Assembly (NCBI GenBank): GCA_021810805.1
Contig: JAJZHW010000001.1
Location: 62,001-126,000, forward strand
Source of the DNA: Nitrospirota bacterium
GTDB lineage: Bacteria; Nitrospirota; Leptospirillia; Leptospirillales; Leptospirillaceae
Length of the DNA: 64,000 bases
Direction of reading: 5' to 3'
Below are positions 2,267-29,230 of the stretch, one piece after another. The notes below the pieces were generated by a model. The model was not told where the DNA came from. It did not search any database and saw nothing but the letters and a program-made list of their open reading frames with translations. Made by a program: the position numbers and the translations under genes. The number at the start of each line of letters is the position of its first letter. Position 1 is the first letter of the stretch.

Positions 2267-3274
2267 ATGAAGGCCTTTGTGGTCCGTCGCCACGGGCCTG
2301 TAGGGGAGGGATCACTCGAGCTCGTCTCCCGTCCCCTCCCGGAGCCGGGGCCGGGTGAGATTCTGGTCAGGGTCCTGGCCTGCGGCGTCTGCCGTACCGA
2401 TTTGCATGTGGTGGAGGGAGATCTTCCTGTTCTTCCCGGGGAGACCATCCCGGGACACGAGGTTGTGGGGGAGGTGGTCGCCCGGGGAGATCATGCCGGC
2501 GGCCGCTTTCGTCCGGGAGACCGGGTGGGGGTGGCGTGGCTCTATCGCTCCTGCGGTCGCTGCCCCTATTGCCTTCGCGGGGACGAAAACCTTTGTTCGG
2601 AGCCCCTTTTCACCGGCTATCATCGCCCCGGGGGCTATGCCGAGTATCTGGTGGCGGAGGAATCATTTTGCTATCCGCTCTCCTCCGCTGAAGACCCCCT
2701 GCTTCAGGCCCCCCTGCTGTGTGCCGGCATTATCGGCTATCGGGCCTTTGCCCAGTCGGGGCTGGGGGCGGGCCAGCGGCTGGGGCTCTACGGCTTCGGA
2801 TCCTCGGCCCATCTCGTCCTGAAGCTCGCCAAATCCCAGGGTCTCCGGGTCTTTGTGGTGACGCGGGGGGAGAGACACCGTGAGTGGGCTCGCGATGCCG
2901 GAGCCGACTGGGTGGGAGAGGAGGCCCTCTCCCGCCCCCCCGTTCCCCTCGACGGGGCCATTCTCTTTGCGCCTGCCGGCGATCTTGTTCCGGGAATCCT
3001 GTCGAGCCTTGACCGGGGAGGGATTCTGCTCACAGCGGGGATCCATGTGACGGATATTCCCCCGATCAACTACCAGCGGGAGCTGTTCTATGAGAAGCGG
3101 CTGCGTTCTGTGACGGCCAACACGAGACAAGACGGAATGGCCTGGCTCTCGCTGGCTTCCGCGCGCTCGATTCTTCCCGAAGTCACCGTCTACGACTTCC
3201 CCCGGGCCTTGGAGGCCCTCGTCGACCTGTCCGCCGACCGGCTTCGGGGCGTGGCGGTCTTGCGCTTTCCCTGA
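2267..3274 (+). CDS. Zinc-dependent alcohol dehydrogenase (MDR family)
   Basis: Medium-chain NAD(P)-dependent alcohol dehydrogenase of about 335 residues. Catalytic-zinc residues appear as C-G-V-C-R-T-D near the N terminus and the G-H-E-V-V-G-E-V motif. A structural-zinc lobe with four cysteines follows (C-G-R-C-P-Y-C and a later C near 100 residues). The Rossmann half carries a glycine-rich G-L-Y-G-F-G-S-S turn. The family normally begins M-K-A-F-V, so the ATG at 2267 is chosen; an ATG at 2231 would add 12 residues and overlap the DUF2892 gene. Neither has a clear ribosome site. Substrate unknown. Confidence 0.85.
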   Translation: MKAFVVRRHGPVGEGSLELVSRPLPEPGPGEILVRVLACGVCRTDLHVVEGDLPVLPGETIPGHEVVGEVVARGDHAGGRFRPGDRVGVAWLYRSCGRCPYCLRGDENLCSEPLFTGYHRPGGYAEYLVAEESFCYPLSSAEDPLLQAPLLCAGIIGYRAFAQSGLGAGQRLGLYGFGSSAHLVLKLAKSQGLRVFVVTRGERHREWARDAGADWVGEEALSRPPVPLDGAILFAPAGDLVPGILSSLDRGGILLTAGIHVTDIPPINYQRELFYEKRLRSVTANTRQDGMAWLSLASARSILPEVTVYDFPRALEALVDLSADRLRGVAVLRFP

Positions 3275-3339
3275 AGAGATGTCTCGTCGTGCGAAGAAGG
3301 CCAAGACTCCAAACCAAACGGAGGGCTTCTGCGAAAAAA

Positions 3340-3407
3340 AAAAGGCGGGAGAGTCTTCCCCGGCGCCCGATGGGTCCGGAGAAGATCTACCGCCTTTGTC
3401 GTTTTTT
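3340..3407. terminator. Bidirectional terminator between convergent genes
   Basis: A run of A residues, then AAAGGCGG (3341-3348), a long imperfectly paired stem, CCGCCTTT (3390-3397) and a T-rich tail (3399-3407). The A-run on one side and T-run on the other let it serve both the alcohol dehydrogenase and the opposing gene ending at 3457. Confidence 0.75.
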
Positions 3408-3456
3408 CGATGCCAGTGGGGGGCAATGGTCCCGGGCCCCCCGCGAAGTTCCGCAG

Positions 3457-26147: not shown

Positions 26148-27086
26148 CTATCGGGTCTTGTGGGCGAGAACGACGGGAATTGCCGACATTCCGATTCGCA
26201 GACGATGGTCCGGGTCGGATCCGGGGTCGATCAGGATCTTGACCGGAACGCGCTGGACCACCTTTGTAAAGTTGCCGGTGGCATTTTCGGGGGGGAGAAG
26301 CGAGAGGACGGCTCCCGTGGATTGGGCAATGCTGTCGACATGTCCATGAAAGGTCTCTCCGGGAAGGGCGTCGACCTTGATGTTGACGGGGTCCCCTTGC
26401 CGAATGCCTCGAAGATCGGTTTCCTTGTAGTTGGCGACAACCCACATACTGAAGGGAACGACATACCCGACAATCTGGCCGGGGGTCAGAAAAGTTCCCA
26501 TTTCGATCGTTTTCCCCGTGACTCGGCCATCGACAGGGGCGAGGACCTTGGTATAGCGGATGTTGAGGGTGTCGATGGCGATTACTGCTTCATCGCGATG
26601 GATCGTCTCCTTCAGGACCTTCATGGCTTCCGTATCGGCCTTGGTTTGAGCCTGGGCCATGCGGTAAGCCGACATGTCCCTGTCGAGCCGGGAGGCCGTT
26701 GCAAATGACTTTTTTGAAAGATTGAGTGTGCGGCGGCTCTCTCTCTTTGCGAGGTCTTCATTCGCCTGGTCCCTCTCGATTGTGGCGGAGAGGACTTTCA
26801 GTTGGGCCATGTCTCGGGCAAGGGAGGCCTTGTCTTTTTCATAGGTTGACTGGAAAAGTCGGGAATCGATTTCCATGAGAACATCGCCACGATGAACAAT
26901 CTGGTTGTCCTTCATGAGAACACTGACAACCGGTCCGGCAATTCGTGGGGTAATAGGGTCGAGATGTCCTGTGATCTGGGCGTCATCGGTGCTGACATGA
27001 GTCCGGATGTATTGCGCATAGATGAGAGAGGCTGCCCCTACGGCGATCAGGGTTGCCGATATGGCGATGGCTGCGGTTTTTTTCAT
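26148..27086 (-). CDS. EmrA/HlyD-type membrane fusion protein
   Basis: Periplasmic adaptor of 312 residues with an N-terminal anchor (about 3-24), a lipoyl-like half (V-S-T-D-D-A-Q-I-T-G-H), a coiled-coil hairpin (about 85-170) and a second lipoyl half (A-P-V-D-G-R-V-T-G-K-T-I-E-M-G), then barrel strands with G-D-P-V-N-I-K-V-D-A. Upstream of it is an AT-rich palindromic region suited to a regulator. First gene of the emrAB-like pair; gap to emrB is 3 bp. Confidence 0.92.
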   Translation of the reverse strand: MKKTAAIAISATLIAVGAASLIYAQYIRTHVSTDDAQITGHLDPITPRIAGPVVSVLMKDNQIVHRGDVLMEIDSRLFQSTYEKDKASLARDMAQLKVLSATIERDQANEDLAKRESRRTLNLSKKSFATASRLDRDMSAYRMAQAQTKADTEAMKVLKETIHRDEAVIAIDTLNIRYTKVLAPVDGRVTGKTIEMGTFLTPGQIVGYVVPFSMWVVANYKETDLRGIRQGDPVNIKVDALPGETFHGHVDSIAQSTGAVLSLLPPENATGNFTKVVQRVPVKILIDPGSDPDHRLRIGMSAIPVVLAHKTR

Positions 27087-27154: not shown

Positions 27155-27281
27155 GGACAAAATGGCCGGGGTCAAGAGCCACCGGTGGGATCATGCCCTT
27201 GGTTTCGCCAAGAAAAGAGAGAAACGGGATCTGGCGAGTTTTGTCGTCACACTGTATTCTTGCAGAATTCAAGGAATTTTT

Positions 27282-27312
27282 GGCTATTTGCAAAATCTGG
27301 CGGGAACCAACC
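27282..27312. repeat. Left terminal inverted repeat of the TA element
   Basis: Thirty-one bases beginning GGCTATTTGC. Matches the reverse complement of 27914-27944 at 28 positions; mismatches are at 27301, 27302 and 27307. Confidence 0.85.
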
Positions 27313-27323
27313 GGGTAATCCCA

Positions 27324-27602
27324 TCACCTTTTCAGTGCTCGATAGAGGTTTTCGTGGGTGCCCACTAGAAGCAGAACTCGCGTTGAAGGGGCAAACTCGT
27401 AAGCCAGAAGATAGAGTTGGTTCACGCAATCAAACTTGTATATGAATACGCCAGAGAGGTCACCCTTCTTTTCCTCTCCGAGATTGGGATTCTGAATGAT
27501 TAATGCAACTGCCTTATCAACAGCATCCTTTTGGTTTGAGCGAAGTTTCTTATATGCACGGGCAAAAACATTCGTTTGAAGAACTTTCACTTCTTTAGTC
27601 AC
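27324..27602 (-). CDS. RelE/ParE-family toxin
   Basis: A 92-residue toxin-like protein: F-A-R-A-Y-K-K-L near the N terminus, a helical pair (about 18-40), then strands with G-V-F-I-Y-K-F, Q-L-Y-L-L-A-Y-E and V-L-L-L-V-G-T-H-E-N-L-Y-R-A-L-K-R at the end. The ending G-x-H-E-N-x-Y-R matches the ParE-like RelE subgroup of type II toxins. It lies downstream of and overlaps the antitoxin by 8 bp, the usual order. The whole pair is inside a small inverted-repeat element. Confidence 0.85.
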   Translation of the reverse strand: MTKEVKVLQTNVFARAYKKLRSNQKDAVDKAVALIIQNPNLGEEKKGDLSGVFIYKFDCVNQLYLLAYEFAPSTRVLLLVGTHENLYRALKR

Positions 27603-27822
27603 GGAATTGGCCCGGCTTGAAAGAGGAAAGGCTGCTGCGATCTTCTTTCTTCGCCACCAACAGTTCGCTTACGAACTCAATTGGAAGATCTGGATTATCC
27701 AATGCGGCCTTCCCAACTTTGGCCCAAAACTCAAGTTGTCCGGCAATTGTGCGACATTCTCCCTGCGATGCGGCCTTCGCTTGCTGATACAGATCATCTT
27801 CAATTCTTACAGGCATACTCAT
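27595..27822 (-). CDS. ParD-like antitoxin
   Basis: A 75-residue antitoxin starting at ATG 27822 behind AAAGGAG. The M-P-V-R-I-E-D-D-L-Y-Q-Q-A-K ribbon-helix-helix start, the E-C-R-T-I-A-G-Q-L-E-F-W-A-K-V-G-K helix and the acidic middle fit the ParD-like family (PF11903). The C-terminal part (about 50-75) should wrap the toxin. A longer reading from 27864 is not supported by a ribosome site. Likely autoregulates the pair. Confidence 0.85.
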   Translation of the reverse strand: MSMPVRIEDDLYQQAKAASQGECRTIAGQLEFWAKVGKAALDNPDLPIEFVSELLVAKKEDRSSLSSFKPGQFRD

Positions 27823-27913
27823 TTTTTCTCCTTTGCTACATTTGTAGTAAGCAGGGTATTGCATAATTATGTTCGCGTCAATAGCCCTAACCGCTCTGTT
27901 CTGTGCAATTTAG

Positions 27914-27944
27914 GGTTGATTCCAACCAGATTTTGCAAATAGCC
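27914..27944. repeat. Right terminal inverted repeat of the TA element
   Basis: The reverse complement begins GGCTATTTGC. Pairs with the left repeat at 28 of 31 positions and is followed directly by the second GAATTTTT copy. Confidence 0.85.
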
Positions 27945-27982
27945 GAATTTTTGGACTTCGCCGGGGACAAGGAGAGATCAGA

Positions 27983-29230
27983 GTGAAAAAATGGCCGGTT
28001 CCGATCGAGGTGTCATTTCGGACATTCGTCGCGATCACCTTTGCTGGTTCGATATTTTTTCATGTCATTGGCTTGGGGATACACTCCTATCTCAATGGGC
28101 AGAAAAGAACGCTGATCGGGAAGATTGAATCCTTGGCGGAGGCCGAGAGCCAGGTGTCGGAAATTGACGCGAGCCTGTCGGCCTTTCATGAAGAGCTTCT
28201 GCAGAGCATAACCTTGGGGGAATCTCAGGGAGAAGGGGCGAGAAGGCTTCTGATTCAGGCTCGCCTGATCAGGATTCTTATTCAGAATCTCGATCATCTC
28301 GATGCCCGGAATCATGGCATTCTCCCCTCGGGCTGGGTCGCCATCGAAAAAAGTGAAAGCTCCTGCCTAAAGAATCCGGCGGTTCAGGGAAGAATGTGTG
28401 TGCAGAGGCTACTCTCTCAGGTGGGAGATTTTCAGCACCGCGTCACCCTTTCCCGACGGGATGAGGTCCGGCGACTCTCTCTTGTGGAGCGTCGTCAGAT
28501 GCACCTCGAACATCTCGATACCTGGCTCTATTGGGGGACGACCGTTCTCGGACTTCTTTTTATGGCCATGGGCTGGAGGAATGTGGTCCTCCAGGTGGGA
28601 GAGCCGATCAAGGATGTCGCCGGATATCTCCAAACCTTTGAGGAGAATAAACCCAAGAAGTCTCCCCCCCTCATTCCGCCGCTCTTTTCCATCAGCGAGC
28701 TCGCAATTTTGCTGAAAAACATGTCCAGAATCTATCGGGATCCCCTGACGGGGGCCTTGGTGCGACGCGCTATCATCAAGATCCTGGCCAGGGAAATAGT
28801 GCGTTCGAAAGAGGAGGGGTTTGCATTGGCCGTGGGGGTTTTTGACATCGATGGCTTGCAGAGATTCAACCATGAGTATGGACATCTTGCTGGAGATGAG
28901 ATCCTTCGTCAGGTGGCCTCCCGGATTCAGGAGTCTCTCGGGGAGGGAGAGTTTTTCGGACGATTCGGCGGAGAAGAGTTTCTCGTCGTTTCTCCTCGGA
29001 TCAAAGAAGACCGTGCGTCTGACCATTTCGAGCAACTCCGACGCATAGTCGCCCAACCCGTCCGTCTGGATTCAGTGGAAGATGTCCCCGTGGCCGTGTC
29101 GGTCGGCATCGCCATTTTAGTGGCTGGGCAGAGCGAGGATGACCTTCTCAGGCTCGCCGAGAGTTCACTGCTTCGTGCGAAAGAGGCGGGGGGAGAGGGC
29201 CACTTCTTGGCAACTCGGCTTGGCCAATGA
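27983..29230 (+). CDS. Membrane-bound diguanylate cyclase (GGDEF)
   Basis: A 415-residue protein predicted to make cyclic di-GMP. Transmembrane helices lie at about 12-35 and 178-198, enclosing a periplasmic sensor-like helical region. A C-terminal GGDEF domain (about 250-405) has D-P-L-T-G-A at its start, V-F-D-I-D-G-L-Q-R-F-N and the active G-G-E-E-F. No R-x-x-D inhibitory site is seen five residues before that motif. GTG start at 27983 behind AAGGAG. The TA element sits 31 bp upstream and separates the gene from its old upstream region. Confidence 0.9.
   Translation: MKKWPVPIEVSFRTFVAITFAGSIFFHVIGLGIHSYLNGQKRTLIGKIESLAEAESQVSEIDASLSAFHEELLQSITLGESQGEGARRLLIQARLIRILIQNLDHLDARNHGILPSGWVAIEKSESSCLKNPAVQGRMCVQRLLSQVGDFQHRVTLSRRDEVRRLSLVERRQMHLEHLDTWLYWGTTVLGLLFMAMGWRNVVLQVGEPIKDVAGYLQTFEENKPKKSPPLIPPLFSISELAILLKNMSRIYRDPLTGALVRRAIIKILAREIVRSKEEGFALAVGVFDIDGLQRFNHEYGHLAGDEILRQVASRIQESLGEGEFFGRFGGEEFLVVSPRIKEDRASDHFEQLRRIVAQPVRLDSVEDVPVAVSVGIAILVAGQSEDDLLRLAESSLLRAKEAGGEGHFLATRLGQ

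Follow-up and report, generated by a model that had tools for sequence, protein, structure and literature searches.

Cargo genes enclosed by IS inverted repeats, flanked by a target duplication and unaccompanied by a transposase, have been described before. For example, MIC231 of Bacillus cereus and the qnrS2 and qnrD mic elements have this structure, and MIC231A1 is mobilised in trans by IS231A (PMC3913671); their cargo is adp, fosfomycin-resistance or qnr genes, and they are not described as ISL3. Addiction modules have also been found inside transposons. In the Tn3 family, whose elements are replicative, the toxin-antitoxin (TA) pair sits beside the resolution site and may stabilise the element (PMC7157771), and the Tn3-derived inverted-repeat miniature elements (TIMEs) are non-autonomous and transposase-less, occupy AT-rich targets, and have Tn3 ends and 5-6 bp duplications (PMC4133298). 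Among ISL3 elements, ISKpn25 is 8154 bp long and carries restriction-modification genes (PMC8796155), and in experiments that captured its insertions the 8-bp target duplications were AT-rich, for example CATTTTTC, CTTTTTTG and AAAAAAAG (PMC8768599).

Here we describe a 663-bp element in a 64,000-nucleotide stretch of Nitrospirota DNA (the whole of which is called the window). Gene content, and an element family in common with Acidithiobacillus, suggest that the source is a Leptospirillum-like bacterium from an acid mine. With ISKpn25 and ISSm4 the element shares GGCTATTTGCA...GGTTGGAA termini, an 8-bp AT-rich duplication of the same sort as the captured ISKpn25 targets, and a cargo of the self-preservation kind, restriction-modification in those two; it differs in that they are autonomous and 8-9 kb long, whereas it is transposase-less and carries a TA pair. 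It is built like the mobile insertion cassettes (MICs) named above, with ISL3 ends and TA genes in place of their ends and cargo. As in the Tn3-family transposons, an addiction module lies inside the element, but there is neither transposase nor resolvase and the TA pair is the entire cargo. Unlike the TIMEs, which it resembles in being non-autonomous and transposase-less with an AT-rich target, it has ISL3-type ends and an 8-bp duplication. In the open-licence literature that we searched, no published TA pair was found as the sole cargo of an ISL3 cassette. TA pairs are ubiquitous in chromosomes and their route of movement is often unclear, and the element provides a tangible vehicle, defined to the base: the cassette is small, its ends are those of a known active IS family, an empty site is present in relatives, and its sisters hold unrelated toxin or defence modules.

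Anatomy of the element

The element and its parts lie in the window as follows.

27274..27281: left target-site duplication (TSD), GAATTTTT
27282..27944: whole element, 663 bp, a probable transposase-less ISL3-type mobile insertion cassette with the TA pair inside
27282..27312, plus strand: left terminal inverted repeat (IRL), 31 bp, GGCTATTTGCAAAATCTGGCGGGAACCAACC, an ISKpn25-type ISL3 end (GGCTATTTGCA...)
27324..27602, minus strand: toxin, 92 aa, GTG start, PF15781 ParE-like_toxin (RelE/ParE superfamily), E 2.6e-35
27595..27822, minus strand: antitoxin, 75 aa, first gene of the operon, PF11903 ParD_like, E 2.5e-20
27836..27847: palindrome-like CTACATTTGTAG, immediately upstream of the antitoxin start (from sequence and alignment)
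27914..27944, minus strand: right terminal inverted repeat (IRR), 31 bp, reverse complement GGCTATTTGCAAAATCTGGTTGGAATCAACC
27945..27952: right TSD, GAATTTTT

IRL and IRR are identical at 28 of 31 positions, and a perfect 8-bp GAATTTTT stands outside both ends. A scan of the window with the 22-bp end gave matches above 15 of 22 at the element's own two ends and nowhere else, the best chance match being 15/22. The TA pair, both genes of which are on the minus strand, makes up the whole gene content of the cassette, with no transposase between the ends. The neighbours, named by inspecting their translations, are a HlyD-type gene (26148-27086, minus strand) and a GGDEF gene (27983-29230, plus strand). 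The initial annotation had reported these inverted repeats and the direct repeat, which are borne out to the base, and had placed a RelE/ParE-type toxin and a ParD-like antitoxin without a transposase between them, a gene assignment with which the PF15781 and PF11903 matches agree.

The start of the toxin gene overlaps the stop of the antitoxin gene (GTGACTAA), and this overlap, together with PF11903 and PF15781 matches that are both above their cut-offs, gives the gene layout of a type II TA system (ParDE/RelBE superfamily). Both reading frames are intact in all four copies of the element that we describe below, and the antitoxin protein is identical in three species, namely in the window's genome (G000), G013 and G001. 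Between G000 and G016, codon changes in the antitoxin are 8 synonymous and 1 non-synonymous, as compared with 11 and 11 in the toxin. This pattern suggests that the antitoxin is under purifying selection and that constraint on it is stronger than on the toxin, which fits a working pair. Upstream of the operon, CTACATTTGTAG (with CTACATATGTAG as its counterpart in the G016 copy) is a candidate operator for TA autoregulation, a function that we infer from its sequence and position. A promoter and terminator scan of the element gave no match, and none of the toxin's relatives by sequence among solved structures was informative.

Empty sites and further copies

An empty site is present in three congeners (G007, G005 and G011), in which flanks 76-77% identical to those of the window run uninterrupted across the junction; in G011 the site holds a single GAATTTTT. 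The window's own genome has one copy of the element. In G013, which is another species, a 96%-identical copy of 663 bp has a perfect duplication of its own, GATTTTTC, and its flanks have no meaningful homology to those of the window, which places it at a different locus. G001 holds a further copy at 96% identity, and a copy in a second genus (G016) is 91% identical and has one decayed end. The duplications GAATTTTT and GATTTTTC are both AT-rich and 8 bp long; that of the G001 copy is not clean (CTTTTTTT / CTTTTGAC). G000 and G013 hold same-length copies at unrelated loci, both bounded by a perfect TSD, from which it follows that insertion of the transposase-less form has taken place at least twice, independently in at least two species.

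The Nitrospirota genomes searched were mostly incomplete assemblies (64-99% within the family). The exact 19-nt end had 11 matches in the genome contigs, most of them lacking a second end, where about 2 would be expected by chance. Searches with the 663-bp element against plasmids and of viral contigs found nothing.

These copies bear directly on whether the element could be a dead remnant, that is, an ISL3 transposon that was inserted whole, with transposase and TA pair, and whose transposase was afterwards deleted where it stood. In the fuller members of the subgroup, cargo does lie beside a transposase, most of the Acidithiobacillus ends described below are one-sided remnants, and three further genomes have only truncated TA pieces without ends. 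Against such decay, however, the 663-bp copies of G000 and G013 are identical in layout although their loci differ and each has a perfect TSD, and the antitoxin protein has remained unchanged in three species. We therefore regard loss of the transposase in place as improbable.

ISL3 ends and a candidate transposase

A PF01610 search of the window's own genome, an 88.7%-complete MAG, found no ISL3 transposase. Congeners encode ISL3 transposases whose ends, where definable, are different (GGGTAT.. or GGC(A/T)C..); when these congener elements were checked as possible helpers, no matching ends were found at the loci examined. An end-pattern search in the order of Acidithiobacillus sulfuriphilus returned 36 sites, spread over 11 of the 31 genomes, as compared with 0 for the reversed control pattern, and a search at the level of the class returned more sites in Gammaproteobacteria. 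Elements with GGCTATNTGCA...GGTTG ends are thus found in Acidithiobacillus and in other Gammaproteobacteria.

One of these, in G203, is an ISKpn25-like autonomous ISL3 transposon; its fullest copy (contig C13, 1974-10002) is 8029 bp long and contains hsdM, hsdS and hsdR (the latter two identified by inspection) and an ISL3 transposase of 455 aa (PF01610, 5.9e-56), in which the zinc ribbon and HTH of ISL3 are also present. The outer flanks show no clean duplication, and the contig stops 5 bp past the element; several contigs of G203 have this end at their termini, which is a sign of a multicopy element. In the 8029-bp copy, hsdR overlaps at its end with the transposase gene. The transposase has 57-58% identity to its counterparts in ISKpn25 and ISSm4, two elements that were found via protein similarity and not via their ends. 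The ends of ISKpn25 (GGCTATTTGCATTCTGAGGTAGG / GGCTATTTGCATTCTAGGGTTGGAATTC, flanking 8154 bp, TSD GAAATTAG) and of ISSm4 (GGCTATTTGCATCCTAGGG / GGCTATTTGCAATCTATGG) both match. Over 22 positions, the right end of the window element shares 16-19 with the ISKpn25 and ISSm4 ends and 15-16 with G203, versus 9-13 with those ISL3 elements of the genus that belong to other subgroups. The window element thus has the GGCTATTTGCA...GGTTG inverted repeats of the ISKpn25-type subgroup, while the DDE_Tnp_ISL3 transposase gene of an autonomous ISL3 IS is absent from it. In the ISL3 tree the three GGCTAT-type transposases group (81/99), a result that is only supportive, row L027 being probably in the wrong frame and distorting the root.

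Neither the 8-bp duplication nor the initial GG is peculiar to ISL3: duplications of this length are also made by IS6 and IS1595, which can likewise begin with GG. The ends might, then, come from another family with 8-bp duplications (IS6, IS1595 or IS66), and their TTGCAAA core indeed resembles the ends of IS26 (IS6). However, an ISL3 transposase is encoded within the G203 element that bears these ends, and ISKpn25 and ISSm4, reached independently through protein, have matching ends, so that we consider an origin outside ISL3 very unlikely. Still further from credible is an ordinary chromosomal or plasmid-derived module between chance repeats: TA pairs are common and relatives of the toxin are also present on plasmids, but by a base-composition estimate only about 7e-10 pairs of inverted repeats and TSDs this good within 10 kb are expected window-wide, a second copy is flanked by a TSD, and the empty sites refute it.

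A probable cassette, proposed to be moved in trans

We conclude that the element probably belongs to the ISKpn25-type ISL3 subgroup as a mobile insertion cassette, which carries a ParD-like/ParE-like operon and would be moved in trans. Transposase loss in place, another IS family and chance all explain less than does a cassette, and the structure of a MIC, with IS-type inverted repeats around cargo, a target duplication and no transposase, is what the locus displays. The initial annotation had read it as a transposase-less unit with the TA pair as sole cargo, and the empty sites and the second insertion with its own TSD uphold that reading; its guess of ISL3, made from TSD length and GG ends, finds support in the 8029-bp G203 element and the ends of ISKpn25 and ISSm4. 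It had also pointed to a fuller element with same-type ends and a transposase, copies with other 8-bp duplications, and empty sites as things to look for, and these are now at hand in G203, in G013 with GATTTTTC, and in G007, G005 and G011. MITEs are about 30-300 bp long and multicopy, and an element of 663 bp with two genes and a single copy in its own genome is more aptly called a mobile insertion cassette than 'MITE-like'.

Since the element has inserted repeatedly while encoding no transposase, we infer that an ISKpn25-type transposase acts on the cassette in trans. An ISKpn25-like transposase would be present in the same cell, for instance from an incoming plasmid or a fuller element, and would recognise the GGCTATNTGCA...GGTTG ends of the cassette; the cassette would then be inserted into an AT-rich 8-bp target, which would be duplicated. 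After insertion, cells that lost the cassette would be penalised by its TA pair. The nature of the cargo suggests that addiction stabilises the cassette in this way, and the restriction-modification cargo of the full-length relatives follows the same self-preserving logic. The element makes two ideas testable, namely that many cassettes lacking a transposase are served by a single ISL3 enzyme, and that a transposable element is better retained when it carries an addiction module.

Sister cassettes

Several further elements have both ends and no ISL3 transposase, with a TSD of 8/8 unless stated. Most of them were found by end pattern, so that the likeness of their ends is by construction, unlike the duplications and the cargo.

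G009, contig C111, 4303-8146: 3844 bp; Fic protein and a nested IS21 (istA/istB); perfect TSD GAAAATTC
G066 and G069: 756 and 762 bp; ribbon-helix-helix protein and a 71-aa protein; TSDs ATACAAAC and GAAATTTC
G447, contig C1, 9959-10849: 891 bp; PIN toxin and Phd/YefM-type antitoxin (VapBC-like); TSD 7/8
G061, contig C58, 9776-10541: 766 bp; VapD-like and DUF5397 genes; one A end and one B end (see below); TSD 6/8
G324: 2612 bp; protein without assigned function; TSD CTAACATG
G117: 4342 bp; IS91-like insertion (by inspection); TSD GATAAATG
Plasmid pHCM1 (NC_003384.1), 77105-81205: 4101 bp; 328-aa protein and a UvrD-type, GajB-like helicase; TSD AAAAAAAG

The VapD-like assignment in G061 is tentative, Pfam giving only a weak Cas2 match. 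The istA/istB genes of G009 raised IS21 as a mobilising family, which was rejected, the IS21 being nested and having its own ends and CCTTAC repeats. The pHCM1 element has ISKpn25-type ends and is sited between conjugation genes of IncHI plasmids, and most of it is present in 586 plasmid records, with the helicase pair on more than 500 enterobacterial plasmids; its 328-aa protein and UvrD/GajB-like helicase are possibly an undescribed defence pair. Acidithiobacillus is among the hosts of the sister cassettes, together with further Gammaproteobacteria and IncHI plasmids of enterobacteria.

It is tempting to speculate that cassettes with ISKpn25-type ISL3 ends make up a system mobilised in trans, and that across phyla this system is biased towards spreading self-preserving modules, among them TA pairs, Fic, VapD, restriction-modification and helicase pairs, as transposase-less units; persistence would then depend on addiction, which would compensate for the lack of a transposase. 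We put this broader proposal forward tentatively, as one that may well prove wrong. The sister elements also yield a search rule, as GGCTATNTGCA ends with an 8-bp duplication should identify cassettes that transposase-based IS annotation would overlook.

The Acidithiobacillus ends fall into two conserved classes of about 230 bp, A (GGTTGGAAACCTATGG) and B (GGTTGACTAGCGATCATGA), which have spaced inner repeats, are mostly one-sided, and both stop at a common inner motif, GCGGTCATTCA. The ends often adjoin defence-like genes, including HNH/PtuB-like, GmrSD_N, AbiLi-like ATPase with DUF4276, and type I restriction-modification genes. On the megaplasmid of A. caldus SM-1 (NC_015851.1), a type B end lies directly downstream of tnsE in a Tn7-like tnsABCDE cluster. 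This position and the repeated inner motifs were the reasons for considering Tn7-like transposition, which was rejected on the grounds that 8-bp duplications and ISL3-linked ends are at odds with it. In A. sulfuriphilus (NZ_RIZI01000166.1, about 2780-3453), one end, for which no second end was found, is located inside a parC-like gene and adjoins proteins that are, by inspection, of the DUF4926/DUF6883 type.
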